A DNA stretch of 48,354 nucleotides from a virus, in the IMG/VR virus record IMGVR_UViG_3300031576_000075, positions 1-48,354 of that record, one strand, 5' to 3'. Below, piece by piece: positions 3,954 to 48,354 of the stretch (position 1 is its first letter; each line of letters begins with the position of its first letter). The position numbers and the translations under genes were made by a program. The notes below the pieces were generated by a model. The model worked only from the letters and a program-made list of their open reading frames with translations. It was not told the origin of the DNA and searched no databases.

Positions 3954-4838
3954 ATGGCAAGGAGCATCATGAAGTTTCATCCCCTGGCAGAATCCTACCC
4001 CCTGATGCCTGACCACGAGCTACAGCTCTTGATCGAGGACATGCGGGCCCACGGCTACGACGCCCGCTTCCCCATCGTCATACATGAGGACGCCATCCTG
4101 GACGGTCGCAATCGCCAGCGCGCCGCCGACAAAGCGGGCGTGGTCCACGTGCCGGAAGTCGATCTGCCGCAGGATGTTGACCCCGTCATGTTCGTTCGCC
4201 GGGCCAACGAGCACCGCAGGCACCTGGACCAGGCATGGCTCCAGAAGCGGCGTGAGGAGCGGGTGAAGCGGGTAGCAGCTGGAACCCGAGAGGGGAAGAG
4301 CCTGCGGGTCATCGCGGAAGAGGAGAAGATCAGCGAAAAGCAGGTGCGAGAGGACCTGAAAAAGTCAGGTGCGGAGGGGTCCGCACCTGCGCCTCCCGAC
4401 GGCAAGGTCACAGGCAAGGACGGCAAGAAGCAGGCGGCCAAGAAGAAAGCCTTTGGCTCAGGTGCGGACCCCTCCGCACCTGAGCGGCAGGCTGGGGAGG
4501 ACGACACCGAGGAGGCCCACGCTCCTACGGATCGCAATGGCAAGCAGTTGCCTCTGCAGGCTGTGGCGGCGTTCCGGCAGGCCGGCGAGCTGACGGCCGC
4601 ATGCCGGGCCGTCGACGAACTGGTCCGCGAGACGGAGCGGCTGGGCAAGTCGCCGGTGGGGGCCCACCTACACTATCAGTCGGTACAAACGCACCTGAAA
4701 AACGCCAAGAACGGCTTGGTGGCCGCCAAGCCGGCGGTTGTCTGCCCTTACTGCCAGGGGCAGCGCAAGGGGTGCAAGGTGTGCCGAGGTCACGGATGGG
4801 TCACGTCGGGCAAGGCCAAGAATGCGCCAGCCAATTGA
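3954..4838 (+). CDS. ParB-like nuclease-domain protein with hairpin-encoded insert
   Basis: The N-terminal ~90 residues are a ParB/Srx-type domain: PLMPDHELQLLIEDM, then the hallmark ILDGRNRQRAA. A helix-turn-helix follows (about residues 112-138, LRVIAEEEKISEKQVREDLKK). Next is a low-complexity Lys-rich segment, bounded by two DNA hairpins and containing VTGKDGKKQAAKKK. The C-terminal half is helical and ends in a four-cysteine DnaJ-like zinc motif (CPYCQGQ...CKVCRGHG). Such proteins bind DNA and may act as regulators or partition-like adaptors. It lies directly before a helicase. A nearly identical tandem insert occurs on the opposite strand at the right window edge. Confidence 0.8.
   Translation: MARSIMKFHPLAESYPLMPDHELQLLIEDMRAHGYDARFPIVIHEDAILDGRNRQRAADKAGVVHVPEVDLPQDVDPVMFVRRANEHRRHLDQAWLQKRREERVKRVAAGTREGKSLRVIAEEEKISEKQVREDLKKSGAEGSAPAPPDGKVTGKDGKKQAAKKKAFGSGADPSAPERQAGEDDTEEAHAPTDRNGKQLPLQAVAAFRQAGELTAACRAVDELVRETERLGKSPVGAHLHYQSVQTHLKNAKNGLVAAKPAVVCPYCQGQRKGCKVCRGHGWVTSGKAKNAPAN
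4366..4485. repeat. Pair of inverted hairpins bounding the VTGKDG module
   Basis: Hairpin 1 (4366-4389) is CAGGTGCGGA, loop GGGG, TCCGCACCTG. Hairpin 2 (4456-4485) is a 13-bp stem ending in GGTGCGGA, loop CCCC, and its complement. The two cores are reverse complements of each other, so the whole 120 bp also forms a long inverted repeat. Both are translated in frame within the ParB-like gene (GAEGSAP and GADPSAP). The stem could form in DNA or RNA. Confidence 0.85.
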
Positions 4839-9999: not shown

Positions 10000-10463
10000 T
10001 GGCTGAGCCTCAAAGCATGGCGAGCGTGAATGCCGTTTTGGACACGTTTGCTCCCGGCTGGACTTTGGATTGTCTCTCCCGACTCCACTGTAGTCCCTTG
10101 TGGCTGCGCGGTCCCGAAGACCGCGCATTGATTGTGCGATTGAACCGGGATCGGCTCTGGCTTGCCGGTGCAGGCCATCGCTTGGGAATGGGCGGGGTTA
10201 CCGAACAGGCTATCGTCCAGTTGGTACTCTGGTGTCGTGATCAACCGCGAGTTCCGATGGCGTGGTGGCTATACGCCTGTTCGGAAAAGATCGGCCTGGG
10301 CTCGTCCGAAACGATCCGATTGCTGAAGGCCAGCGACTACGGCGACCCGGCCCGAACCTGCTGCGTCCTGTGCGGAGCAGCCAACCCGACGGACTGGTGG
10401 TCGCTGGCAAAGGTTCTTGGCCCCTGCTGCTGGATGGGGCGGTGTAATGAGGTACGTTCATGA
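9999..10463 (+). CDS. Hypothetical protein (154 aa)
   Basis: ATG 9999 overlaps the previous stop (ATGTGATG). The protein is Trp/Cys-rich (LWLRGPEDRALIVRLNRDRL, and CCVLCGAANPTDWWSL near the C-terminus). A zinc site is possible. No family recognised. Its last codons overlap the thyX start. Confidence 0.5.
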   Translation: MAEPQSMASVNAVLDTFAPGWTLDCLSRLHCSPLWLRGPEDRALIVRLNRDRLWLAGAGHRLGMGGVTEQAIVQLVLWCRDQPRVPMAWWLYACSEKIGLGSSETIRLLKASDYGDPARTCCVLCGAANPTDWWSLAKVLGPCCWMGRCNEVRS

Positions 10464-12253
10464 GCGAACTGAAACTGATCTTCGCGCCCACGGTCTACCT
10501 GGTCGGTCGGACGTCGCCCCTGACGCCTGATCTGGACCGCTACGTCGAGAACTGCGGAGGCTCCGTGGAGTCCCTGCTCCGCCAAGCCGTGTCTGGCCCC
10601 GAGCTGCTCTGCGAGGTGGCTGGACGGACATGCTACCAGTCGTTCGCCAACTCTCGGCCTGGTGGCAACGCGGCCTACCTGGCCAACATCCTGGAGCACG
10701 GTCATGGAAGCATCGCCGAACACGCCGTGTACAGCTTCGTGTTCACGGGCGTCAGTCGGTCGCTCACCCACGAGTTGATCAGGCATCGCGCGGGCTGGTC
10801 TTATTGTCTGGCTGGAGACGTGTCTGTGTGGAGCGGCAGCAAGCTGAATGGCATCTACGACGGGATCAAGAAGCGATGGTCGATCCGGAAACTGTTCGAG
10901 TGGTCGAATGACCCCATTCGCAAGGGACGCCTGAAGCTAATCAAAGTGCGATGTTTCGACGGCGAATCCTTCGTTCAGGCTGGCGTTAAGTCCGTTGTCT
11001 GCTCTGGAATCAAGACGATCAAGAAGGTGACACTGGAGGACGGAAAGACAATTCGCTGCTCAGAGAATCACCTCTTTCTGACGCCGGATGGGTGGGAGCC
11101 GGCTCGTCAACTTCGTGCTGGCACGCCGCTCGCGACGAACGGTCTACCTGCGGTCAATCTTGACCGCGAGTGGCTGATGAGGCAATACCACGAGAACAAA
11201 AGGAGAATCAAAGACATCGCTCTGGAAGTCGGCTGCTCCCCACACACAGTTCGCAAATACATCAGCCTTTACGGGTTGCAAAAACCACTTGGCGCCTGGT
11301 CTATCGGCCAGTCGCCTCCCAACAAGGGGACAACCTGTCGCACGGGATACCACCACCCGGAGGCGACGAAGAAGATCTTGTCTGAGCAGAAGCGCGGGTC
11401 GAACGGTCCTTCCTGGAAAGGCGATAACGCATCTCAGCAAGCTGGGCGTTTGCGGGCTCAGCGCATGTATCCATCTCAGCCATGCGAGGCATGCGGAATG
11501 GAGGATGGCCATCGCCACCATAAGGACCGAAACACACTCAACAACAATCGGGACAACATCGAGTTCTTGTGCGGCCGCTGCCATAAACTTAGGCATATCA
11601 AGGAGGATGGACATTCGAGTTGGCTAACTGTAAAGTGGGTGCCGGTCAAGTCTATTGAATCCGATGGCGAGGAGATGACCTACGATCTGGAAGTTGACCA
11701 CCCGGCCCACAACTTTGTTGCTAATGGTTTCGTCACCCACAACTCCGAGCTTTCGCAACGGTTCGCTGACTGCTCGGACGTCGCGTTCGTGGTGCCGCCG
11801 GCAATGCTGGAAACTGTCCAGCGCTGGAAACACAACCAGATTGTGCCTGAGCAGTGCCTGGACCAATCATCTCAGGAGCAGATCCGCAAAGGCCAAAGAT
11901 GGATCGACGACCTCTGGCATCACCTGGGGAATTACGTCTACCTGTCGGGCGATTTGTCCCAACAGGCCCCCCCTGAGTTCTCCAGCACTGACCGTCGCAA
12001 GTTCGGCAGGCAGGCTGCCCGCAGCGTCCTGCCAGAATGCGCCGAGACGAAACTGTTCGCCACAGTCAATGCGCGAGCGTTGCGGCACTTCGTCGAACTT
12101 CGCGGCACCATGCACGCAGACGCGGAAATCCGTCGGCTGGCCGTGGCCGTGGTACGGATCATGCAGGCCGAGGCCCCTGGTCTGTTCGGCGACTACGTGA
12201 TCAGCGATACACAGGAAGAGCACGTCCTACCAACCAAGTGGAGGAAGGTGTAG
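10460..12253 (+). CDS. thyX: Flavin-dependent thymidylate synthase ThyX, intein-containing
   Basis: The extein is residues 1-115 plus 429-597. The N-part contains ILEHGHGSIAEHAVYSFVF and ELIRHRAGWSY. It continues after the intein with SELSQRF, together giving the ThyX signature RHR...S. ThyX makes dTMP from dUMP using FAD and methylene-tetrahydrofolate, and phages use it to supply thymidine for replication. The ATG at 10460 follows GAGGTACGTTC. The intein sits exactly in the active-site motif, where inteins usually insert. Without it the protein is 284 aa, slightly long for ThyX. Confidence 0.93.
   Translation: MSELKLIFAPTVYLVGRTSPLTPDLDRYVENCGGSVESLLRQAVSGPELLCEVAGRTCYQSFANSRPGGNAAYLANILEHGHGSIAEHAVYSFVFTGVSRSLTHELIRHRAGWSYCLAGDVSVWSGSKLNGIYDGIKKRWSIRKLFEWSNDPIRKGRLKLIKVRCFDGESFVQAGVKSVVCSGIKTIKKVTLEDGKTIRCSENHLFLTPDGWEPARQLRAGTPLATNGLPAVNLDREWLMRQYHENKRRIKDIALEVGCSPHTVRKYISLYGLQKPLGAWSIGQSPPNKGTTCRTGYHHPEATKKILSEQKRGSNGPSWKGDNASQQAGRLRAQRMYPSQPCEACGMEDGHRHHKDRNTLNNNRDNIEFLCGRCHKLRHIKEDGHSSWLTVKWVPVKSIESDGEEMTYDLEVDHPAHNFVANGFVTHNSELSQRFADCSDVAFVVPPAMLETVQRWKHNQIVPEQCLDQSSQEQIRKGQRWIDDLWHHLGNYVYLSGDLSQQAPPEFSSTDRRKFGRQAARSVLPECAETKLFATVNARALRHFVELRGTMHADAEIRRLAVAVVRIMQAEAPGLFGDYVISDTQEEHVLPTKWRKV
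10805..11743 (+). mobile_element. Intein with HNH homing endonuclease in ThyX
   Basis: A 313-residue in-frame insert starting with Cys (CLAGDVSVWSG) and ending with VANGFVTHN before Ser of the C-extein: Cys1, block B and a C-terminal His-Asn with +1 Ser. The central part has an HTH-like stretch (IKDIALEVGCSPHTVRKYI) and an HNH endonuclease core (CEACGMEDGHRHHKDRNTLN, then CGRCHKLRH). This is the layout of a self-splicing, mobile intein. Confidence 0.92.
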
Positions 12254-30290: not shown

Positions 30291-30341
30291 CCGAAACTCA
30301 AATTTTGACCCCGGCCCACCGACTTGGTCACACTGGCTCGC

Positions 30342-31562
30342 ATGAGTCGACGGGACGCCTACACTTCTGGACGACTGACCCATCTCCGCGAGGACTACGC
30401 CTGTGGGTACGCACAACTACCCACAGGCGAGCTCCGTGTGGACCGCGACCAGGGCATCATCCGTGGCGTCAAAGTGGTTGGGCTCACCAGTCCCAACGGC
30501 CACGGCAGGCCGGGCGCCACCAGGGGCACGGCCTACACGGTGGAGGCCCTTCAGGCCGCGGCTCCGCTGTACCACGAAGTCGACGTCTACGTGAACCACC
30601 GGCCCCCTGAGCAGCGTGGCGGCCATCGACGCGCCGAACGCAAGGCCGAGGACAAACTTGGCATGCTCATCAATCCGCGCGTCGTCGAAGGCCAAGGGTT
30701 GTTCGCGGACCTGGTCCTTCTGAAATCGCATCCCATGTCGGAGCGACTGATGGAAGCCGCCGACCGCATGCCCAACGCCTACGGCCTGTCCCACGACGCC
30801 TACGGCGATGGCGACATTGTTGACGGTCGATTTGTCATTGACCGTATTCCCCAAGTAAATTCGGTCGACCTGGTTGCCCGCGGGGCGACCGTTCAGGGCC
30901 TGTTCGAGAGCGAGGGTTCCACGATAGCGAGCAAGACGTTCCGGCAGGTGCTGGAGGCGGCCAACCCCGCCGTAGCCAAGCCATTCCTCTGTCTCCTGGA
31001 GATGGATGGCGACTTCGGCGGCATGGACATGGGTATGAGCGGGGACGCCGAGGACGACACCGACCACAAGCCCGATCTGGTTACGGCCATCGGCAAGTTG
31101 GTCCAGTCGAAGGACCCCAAGGATCATGCCCTGGCCCAGAAGATCCTCAAAATGCTTCATCCTGAAGCCGATGGCGGCGATGCAGAGGCTCCCGATGATG
31201 AGGCGGGCGACGAAGACGAGGACGACGTAGACGACAAGCCGAAGAAAACCGAGGAAGGCCGTCGTGCCGCCAGCAAGCCGGACCCGGCTGTAACGCTGCT
31301 GCGCGAGGAGTTGACGGTGCGCGACCTGATCGAAGACGCCGGCCTCAAGTTCGCCAAGCCCGAAGCTCGCAAGGCGTTCATCCGCTCGCTGGTGCCGCTC
31401 CAGGAAGGCGACCGCAAGGCCCTGATTGAGGAGCGGCGGATCACGGGCTCGGCTGTGCAGCGCAACGCGCCACGGTCCAGTGGGCCGGGCGAAGCTCCAA
31501 CGACGAGCAAGCGCAAGCCCGTAACCGACGGCCAGAGTTTCGCTGCGGCCGTATTGCAGTAA
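30342..31562 (+). CDS. Prohead protease with C-terminal scaffold-like part
   Basis: I chose ATG 30342; TTG 30324 is an alternative, and neither has a clear SD. The N-terminal 200 residues fit the prohead protease fold: HEVDVYVNHRPPEQRGGHRR, KLGMLINPRVVEGQGLFADL, NAYGLSHDAYGDGDIV (Ser region) and VNSVDLVARGATV. The C-terminal half is very acidic and helical (DDEAGDEDEDDVDDKPKK), as in protease-scaffold fusions. It matures the capsid next to the major capsid gene. Its last residues FAAAVLQ recur just downstream. Confidence 0.8.
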   Translation: MSRRDAYTSGRLTHLREDYACGYAQLPTGELRVDRDQGIIRGVKVVGLTSPNGHGRPGATRGTAYTVEALQAAAPLYHEVDVYVNHRPPEQRGGHRRAERKAEDKLGMLINPRVVEGQGLFADLVLLKSHPMSERLMEAADRMPNAYGLSHDAYGDGDIVDGRFVIDRIPQVNSVDLVARGATVQGLFESEGSTIASKTFRQVLEAANPAVAKPFLCLLEMDGDFGGMDMGMSGDAEDDTDHKPDLVTAIGKLVQSKDPKDHALAQKILKMLHPEADGGDAEAPDDEAGDEDEDDVDDKPKKTEEGRRAASKPDPAVTLLREELTVRDLIEDAGLKFAKPEARKAFIRSLVPLQEGDRKALIEERRITGSAVQRNAPRSSGPGEAPTTSKRKPVTDGQSFAAAVLQ

Positions 31563-31637
31563 CCCGTCTGGCGATTCAGGTGAAAACCCCTTTTCACCTG
31601 ACGATCAGCGTTTTGCCGCGACCTTATTGCAGTAACC
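31553..31637 (+). repeat. Duplicated gene end with an internal hairpin
   Basis: ATTGCAGTAACC at 31553-31564 recurs at 31626-31637. Between them is the perfect hairpin TCAGGTGAAAA-CCCC-TTTTCACCTGA (31576-31601). The intervening frame 31564-31635 encodes ENPFSPDDQRFAATLLQ and a stop, a diverged second copy of the protease ending (KPVTDGQSFAAAVLQ). It looks like a tandem duplication or an insertion carrying a spare C-terminus. Confidence 0.7.
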
Positions 31638-41690: not shown

Positions 41691-41867
41691 ATGATGCGCA
41701 GCACGTCAACTGTAAAGGGGGTTACAGTTGAGCCCGCAGACGGTAGGGTGACGGGCAAGGACGGCAGGACGAGGGGGCCGAGGAAGAAGAAGGTGCCATC
41801 TGGAGGCTCAACTGTAACCCCCTTTACAGTTGAGCGGCAGAAGGTGGCGCAGGAGGCCAAGCGATGA
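41691..41867 (+). CDS. Free-standing hairpin/VTGKDG module (58 aa)
   Basis: ATG 41691 (or 41694). The protein is nothing but the module also found in the ParB-like gene: TVKGVTVEPADGRVTGKDGR, then RKKKVPSGG, TVTPFTVERQK, aligned with EGSAPAPPDGKVTGKDGK ... KKKAFGSG ... SAPERQ. It lies between two copies of GCGATGATGCGC (41688-41699 and 41861-41872), the second being the start of the gp10-like gene. It thus looks like an insertion at that gene's 5' end, and it overlaps that gene by 4 nt. Confidence 0.65.
   Translation: MMRSTSTVKGVTVEPADGRVTGKDGRTRGPRKKKVPSGGSTVTPFTVERQKVAQEAKR
41706..41835. repeat. Second pair of inverted hairpins
   Basis: Hairpin 1 (41706-41731): TCAACTGTAA, loop AGGGGG, TTACAGTTGA. 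Hairpin 2 (41806-41835): GCTCAACTGTAA, loop CCCCCT, TTACAGTTGAGC. The stems match each other but not those at 4.4 kb. The G/C loop and the right flank TGAGCGGCAG are the same in both places. Confidence 0.85.
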
Positions 41868-48079: not shown

Positions 48080-48354
48080 TCATTCGCCCCCGCCCGTCCG
48101 GGGGTCGGCCCGCGTCGTTCTGCCATTCTGCCCCGTGACCTTGCTGTCGGGAGGCTCAGGTGCGGACCCCTCCGCACCTGAGCCAAAGGCTTTCTTCTTG
48201 GCCGCCTGCTTCTTGCCGTCCTTGCCTGTGACCTTGCTGTCGGGAGGCTCAGGTGCGGACCCCTCCGCACCTGAGCCAAAGGCTTTCTTCTTGGCCGCCT
48301 GCTTCTTGCCGTCCTTGCCTGTGACCTTGCTGTCGGGAGGCTCAGGTGCGGACC
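48080..48354 (-). CDS. ParB-like paralogue, C-terminal end only (5' part outside window)
   Basis: On the - strand a frame is open from the right edge to TGA at 48082-48080. It reads SAPEPPDSKVTGKDGKKQAA, then KKKAFGSGAEG, twice, and finishes KVTGQNGRTTRADPRTGGGE. The 31-residue unit is that of the ParB-like protein at 4.4 kb, with only a few base differences, but repeated in tandem. No start codon is needed inside the window because the gene begins beyond it. Function is inferred only from the shared module. Confidence 0.65.
   Translation of the reverse strand, partial: SAPEPPDSKVTGKDGKKQAAKKKAFGSGAEGSAPEPPDSKVTGKDGKKQAAKKKAFGSGAEGSAPEPPDSKVTGQNGRTTRADPRTGGGE
48135..48354. repeat. Tandem 93-bp repeat containing the 4.4-kb hairpin
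   Basis: The hairpin AGGTGCGGA-CCCC-TCCGCACCT starts at 48158, 48251 and 48344 (cut by the window edge), giving a 93-bp period. Units are identical where they can be compared. They are inverted relative to the copy at 4366-4485. The number of units beyond the edge is unknown. Confidence 0.9.

Follow-up and report, generated by a model that had tools for sequence, protein, structure and literature searches.

Why should a gene for a DNA-binding protein carry two matching, inverted hairpins in its own coding sequence? The question arises in virus record IMGVR_UViG_3300031576_000075, whose 48,354 bases, here called the window, include terminase, portal and tape-measure genes as well as a ParB-like gene that reads in frame through both hairpins. 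The original prediction offered three options for them: sites bound by the encoded protein, sites of recombination, or remnants of a mobile palindromic element.

Two in-frame hairpins in a ParB-like gene

The features of the gene are the following (coordinates, strand, description, basis).
3954..4838, plus strand: ParB-like gene, 294 aa (ORF; phrog_21315; six-homologue profile; AlphaFold model)
4299..4358, plus strand: HTH codons, SLRVIAEEEKISEKQVREDL (alignment with homologues; model helices)
4332-4358, plus strand: proposed recognition helix, SEKQVREDL (alignment with homologues; model helices)
4365..4390, plus strand: H1 (site 1), TCAGGTGCGGA-GGGG-TCCGCACCTGc (dyad search, chance test)
4407..4427, plus strand: VTGKDGK motif, a member of the TGxDGKxYPA linker motif that lies 3' of the site in homologues
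4458-4483, or 4456..4485 with full arms, plus strand: H2 (site 2), TCAGGTGCGGA-CCCC-TCCGCACCTGA (dyad search)

The encoded protein matches phrog_21315 (E=7.6e-11), a family common to its homologues in L010 and L011. A profile built from this protein and five homologues matches ParB/Spo0J/Noc/KorB structures in the PDB (7o0n, 1vz0, 6t1f ParB; 8qa8 KorB), with a best E of 1.3e-8 against ParB-type entries. By this six-sequence profile the protein has a predicted ParB N-terminal domain and is classed as ParB-like; taken alone it does not match Pfam ParB_N, for which L011 gives a sub-threshold match. Its layout comprises a ParB/Srx-type N domain, an HTH, a disordered linker whose codons hold both sites, and a C-terminal part. 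The HTH after the N domain is seen both in the alignment and in AlphaFold helices 117-124 and 128-138. The AlphaFold model, poor as a whole (pLDDT 56), is confident in the HTH (pLDDT 82-88); the linker falls below 50 and is probably disordered exactly over the codons that hold H1 and H2. No close relatives of the whole protein were found in viral contigs, and phage records gave five weak matches. No ParA was found among the scanned window genes, which are part of the gene content of an incomplete contig. Elsewhere in the window (10460-12253), an intein with an HTH-like segment splits the gene for ThyX, the flavin-dependent thymidylate synthase.

H1 contains a 24-bp dyad, CAGGTGCGGA-GGGG-TCCGCACCTG, at 4366-4389, which begins 7 nt past the HTH codons. 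H2 has the same stem, a CCCC centre and perfect 13-bp arms across 4456-4485. The two form 29-nt inverted repeats, 97% complementary and 61 nt apart, and are translated as SGAEGSAP ... SGADPSAP. With up to three mismatches allowed, GGTGCGGANNNNTCCGCACC has four matches in the window, all of them perfect, against 0.65 expected; this number was reached in 0 of 100 dinucleotide shuffles of the window. The exact GGTGCGGA/TCCGCACC stem likewise occurs four times, as H1, H2 and two sites in a contig-end array. Both hairpins in the gene are genuine and far above chance, and the predicted common stem core, G4/C4 loops and translation of both are confirmed.

H2 is the reverse complement of H1, loop included, as snap-back copying would give, and the copies are homogenised. 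Both observations would suit a neutral origin, in which palindromes arise perfect and in copies through template switching or gene conversion and the site itself has no function. Such an origin leaves unexplained the fixed position after the HTH, the link to the recognition helix and the copy upstream of parA, all described below, and we regard it as very unlikely. Even so, either process may be what holds the arms symmetric.

The dyad behind the HTH across the family

Among the results of a search with the stem were unrelated genes from phages and MAGs (L010, L011, L026, L079) with the same dyad between the HTH and TGxDGKxYPA, and homologues found by protein rather than by stem carry a dyad in the same place with the stems AGGTGTCCAAATTGGACACCT, AGGTGTCCCAGTGGGACACCT, TGGTGGGGAAATTCCCCACCA and GTAACTGGGGAAATTCCCCAGTTAC. 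For a set not chosen by stem, genes were gathered via TGxDGKxYP and VGxDGKxYPA codons. Exact arms of at least 9 bp within 84 nt 3' of the HTH were present in 28 of the 51 HTH-positive genes of this set, compared with 2/64 genes that have the GxDGKxYP motif without an HTH and 68 of 9213 (0.7%) random 90-nt windows from the same contigs. A looser test (10-bp arms, up to two mismatches) found a dyad in 57/61 HTH genes, against a chance rate that we estimate at about 9% per gene; these dyads measure 23-25 bp and start -5 to +22 nt relative to the HTH end. The usual form is 5'-CAGGT-N5-(3-4)-N5'-ACCTG-3', with outer arms TATCT...AGATA on cyanobacterial, Chloroflexota and Rhodovastum plasmids and CAGGT...ACCTG in most others. 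From these comparisons, H1 and H2 appear to be two instances of a family-wide feature. VTGKDG(K), which had been proposed as the core of an element, turns out to be a neighbouring linker motif: TGxDGKxYPA stands after the site in most members.

The dyad is weak or absent in a few HTH members (L118, L295, L272, L275), and none was found after the HTH in three plasmid-borne Streptomyces StrR-like genes or in the ParB of Leptospira phage LE1 (NC_048892.1, L341). The LE1 gene order resembles that of the window, with a ParB-like gene followed by a DEAD/DEAH helicase; a weak LE1 dyad close to the C-terminus encodes VTIDKNGN. Profile searches of bacterial chromosomes were positive in 2/385, 0/177 and 0/391 genomes, and the TGxDGKxYP pattern in 2/385 (neither locus HTH-like) and 0/394. 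With chromosomal searches almost empty, members therefore reside on phages and plasmids for the most part. As a useful negative control, the pattern in its DGR version returned only unrelated genes without HTH dyads. Most bacterial matches to the bare stem were set aside; they lay outside such genes, and many had terminator-like flanks.

The dyad is used in all three reading frames (13/40/4), and the encoded peptide therefore differs between members, with SGAECSAPE, QVFKTENL and GQVVNTSQP among the versions. The 36 arm mismatches comprise 5 G.U and 31 other pairs, which is about chance level and thus disfavours RNA wobble pairing. The use of three frames and the lack of a G.U excess together indicate that DNA dyad symmetry is conserved, rather than a peptide or RNA pairing. 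Strong stems within a transcribed gene could nevertheless act as mRNA hairpins in translation, mRNA stability or termination, with RNA pairing under selection, and their position between domains could suit pausing. We consider this highly improbable: besides the G.U count, the core of the site tracks a DNA-recognition helix, a second copy upstream of parA is non-coding, and the T-run of a terminator is missing. The window sequence has no T-run after the stem and the family mismatches give no sign of selection for G.U pairing; judged by these two features, the hairpins do not qualify as intrinsic terminators or RNA hairpin elements.

Translated palindromes within coding sequence are also a property of Rickettsia palindromic elements and REP-like repeats, and the hairpins might accordingly mark an in-frame insertion whose unit is the TGxDGK module with its inverted hairpins. 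The window has three places with such a module, two with inverted 26-bp ends around the VTGKDGK linker and one tandem; sites are duplicated in L150, where two identical copies flank TGxDGKxYP, and palindromes are clustered in L112 and L073. No common body inserted at unrelated places was found among the homologues, which share the position of the dyad and not its sequence: the place after the HTH is constant, the stems are unrelated, and the sequence is tied to helix residues, a covariation unexpected for an inserting element. A mobile element is very unlikely. Independent variation of the two stems, which would have spoken against the original prediction, was not found; the arms change together.

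Site core, recognition helix and a putative cognate site

Half-sites were aligned by hand with the outer arm CAGGT/TATCT as anchor, and the inner five bases were compared with the contact residues of helix 3. When helix 2 was controlled for, similarity of the inner core was correlated with that of helix 3 (partial Mantel r=0.35, p=2e-4, n=40; without stem-found members r=0.23, p=2e-4, n=35), and helix 2 retained a smaller partial correlation (r=0.10 for all members, 0.19 in the unascertained set); these values control for shared ancestry in part only, as related genes are not fully independent. Acidic residues contact cytosine in DNA recognition. Here, genes whose second helix-3 residue is acidic had C at site position 7 without exception (19/19), compared with 2/36 otherwise (p=7e-13); with His, Lys or Arg as that residue, G7 was present in 13 of 22 cases, compared with 1 of 33. 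In later-collected genes, aligned once the rule had already been noticed, the acidic-residue rule held in 7/7 against 0/8 (p=1.6e-4), and cores predicted for this later set from the first set agreed at 3.2/5 bases, against 1.85 by chance (p=5e-4).

Individual cases follow the same pattern. With an identical helix 2 (SYRRIAKVL), the helix-3 variants SHMT, PKST and DEGT are paired with the cores GTAAC, GTCCG and GCGGA, respectively. The pair DHKTV and GGGGA recurs in Leptospira plasmids as well as in a phage and a plasmid of Agrobacterium, and SVGT is found with TTTTCA in both L156 and L235, whose outer arms differ. The core TGCGGA occurs with DEGTV in the Rhodovastum plasmid and with DEGTI in a phage, again with differing outer flanks. 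By these comparisons, the variable core tracks the recognition helix of the encoded protein. Jalal et al. (2020; PMC7383237) assign specificity in ParB/Noc to residues of the recognition helix.

Second copies of the site were found in several relatives. Two Leptospira plasmids, p2 of L. noguchii and pLiSL23 of L. interrogans, each have exactly two copies of the 17-bp dyad CTGGGGAAATTCCCCAG, one inside the parB-like gene of a parA-parB operon and the other some 100 bp upstream of parA; the outer flanks of the two copies differ. A plasmid of A. salinitolerans (Agrobacterium), in which ParA is encoded as a separate gene, has a second near-copy 10 kb away inside a ParA-family gene. The site is confined to its own gene in the Rhodovastum plasmid, in four large plasmids and in three phage records.

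We hypothesize that each palindrome serves the encoded protein as its cognate parS/operator-type site, a putative assignment that we hold to be very probable. The position after the HTH, a dyad kept while its sequence changes, a core that tracks the helix and the copy upstream of parA lend strong support to the first of the three options originally offered; the mobile-element option finds no common body, and recombination or template switching may still be the way in which copies arise and stay symmetric. From the sequence patterns, we infer binding, its dimer mode and a regulatory or partition outcome as follows. The ParB/StrR-like HTH protein would dimerise and recognise the hairpins as double-stranded DNA dyads. 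Its recognition helix would read the inner half-arm (GCGGA in the window gene), and more conserved contacts would likely read the outer half-arm (CAGGT in the window gene; TATCT or CAACT elsewhere). The site would be placed in disordered-linker codons right after the HTH codons, where residue changes should cost little, so that HTH and site would stay linked and could change together. The protein would load on its own gene and, in the window phage, on the contig-end array. Loading on its own gene would lead to autoregulation; for the window phage, a nucleation site (parS) and a pure autoregulator are equally probable. With a linked ParA, as in the plasmid relatives, the site would act as a parS centromere.

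Further, HTH codons and neighbouring site might together form one exchangeable specificity cassette of about 100 bp, in which recombination or paired mutation would swap helix and cognate site together in phages and plasmids and give each replicon a private ParB-site pair. We advance this tentatively, judging it nearly as probable as its opposite. If true, such private pairs would amount to an incompatibility or superinfection identity. The arrangement suggests how a phage or plasmid ParB changes specificity yet keeps its site, both being in one short stretch of DNA. For HTH proteins, recognition codes are difficult to establish, since a protein and its site are as a rule found apart. Here, the gene appears to state its own site a few bases past the helix, and protein-site pairs could therefore be collected by sequence alone and tested directly; if this holds, the recognition code of an HTH family would be readable from thousands of genomes without experiments.

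The closest known counterpart is the ParB-parS system (Spo0J/Noc, KorB, plasmid parABS), with which the family shares the ParB N domain and HTH by profile (PDB E ~1e-8), a dyad site of about 16-24 bp and, in the Leptospira relatives, sites both upstream of parA and inside parB. B. subtilis has a parS inside spo0J, and a site within a parB gene is thus already known in principle. The present family differs in that its site is hypervariable and, in nearly all members, immediately follows the HTH codons, and in that most phage members have no ParA adjoining the gene. The ParB-HTH part is fused to a DNA methyltransferase in L011, L119 and L306; L308 joins these three as a member with a DNA methyltransferase fusion or annotation, and the embedded site could bear on methylation control in this group.

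StrR, whose name several homologues carry in their annotation, binds a palindromic operator. The StrR-type regulators have the same domain order as seen here, a ParB-like N domain followed by an HTH (PMC10886168). The family departs from them in the three Streptomyces genes without a post-HTH dyad, and in phage members that do not lie beside biosynthetic clusters. In BstA-aba prophage self-immunity, a DNA element is likewise tied to the locus encoding its DNA-binding partner; protein family and element are different there, and no sign of a defence role was seen here. No description of such embedded sites was found in the papers searched, and the terms 'palindrom' and 'inverted repeat' are absent from the text of a 2025 ParB-fold survey (PMC12704722). 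The systematic placement of the site beside the HTH, with specificity readable from sequence, appears to be new.

Further sites in the window and clustered dyads elsewhere

The original prediction counted two copies of the site. H1 and H2 stand, and an array at 48080-48354, a module at 41706-41835 and a site at 31576-31601 had been missed.
31576..31601, no strand: single dyad with a third core (CAGGTGAAAA), TCAGGTGAAAA-CCCC-TTTTCACCTGA (dyad search)
41691..41867, plus strand: small ORF, 58 aa, reading site - VTGKDGR linker - inverted site (ORF, dyad search)
41706..41731, plus strand: core-GTAA site, TCAACTGTAA-AGGGGG-TTACAGTTGA (dyad search)
41806..41835, plus strand: its inverted partner, GCTCAACTGTAA-CCCCCT-TTACAGTTGAGC (dyad search)
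48080..48354, minus strand: 3' part of a second gene, truncated by the contig end, in 93-bp tandem units (repeat search, translation)
48153..48184, minus strand: array site, perfect 14-bp arms (dyad search)
48246..48277, minus strand: array site, perfect 14-bp arms (dyad search)

Each 93-bp unit at the contig end encodes SGAEGSAPEPPDSKVTGKDGKKQAAKKKAFG and holds a GGTGCGGA-GGGG-TCCGCACC site; a third copy is cut at 48343-48354, and the number of repeats may be mis-assembled. An assembly artefact in the form of a mirrored copy was considered and rejected, since the array copy differs from H1/H2 (95% identity). The module at 41706-41835 has the layout of the ParB-like gene with a different stem (TCAACTGTAA); its 58-aa ORF overlaps the start of the next gene and has no HTH. 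The dyad at 31576-31601 sits 14 nt past the stop of gene 30324-31562, between 38-nt direct repeats (82%) at 31527-31564 and 31600-31637. The repeated stretch around this dyad, TCAGGTGAAAACCCCTTTTCACCTGA, contains the stop codon of the gene, and the dyad looks as if brought in by duplication of the gene's 3' end.

The contig yielded no HTH that would match the cores GTAA (41706-41835) or GAAAA (31576-31601); in L163, SHMT-type helices have a site similar to the GTAA core. Despite their three cores, the window dyads (4366-4485, 31576-31601, 41706-41835, 48153-48277) all have a G4/C4 or longer centre, compared with mostly AAAT or AAT in relatives. The inverted and tandem modules of the window show site multiplication by local copying, which may also hold the arms symmetric.

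Clustered dyads were also observed at two loci outside the window. A region of the Kytococcus aerolatus chromosome (L112, 5300-5900) contains 4-5 dyads of 22-34 bp, two of which share identical downstream flanks (CATCGCGGAGGTCTGAGTCGCAGGGC) and differ in their cores (GGGACAAATGTCCC, GCGGAAAGTTCCGC). In a Dethiobacter MAG (L073, 1900-2730), several dyads with different cores are clustered beside HTH-like remnants (GEKTVRRAAEFAKF).
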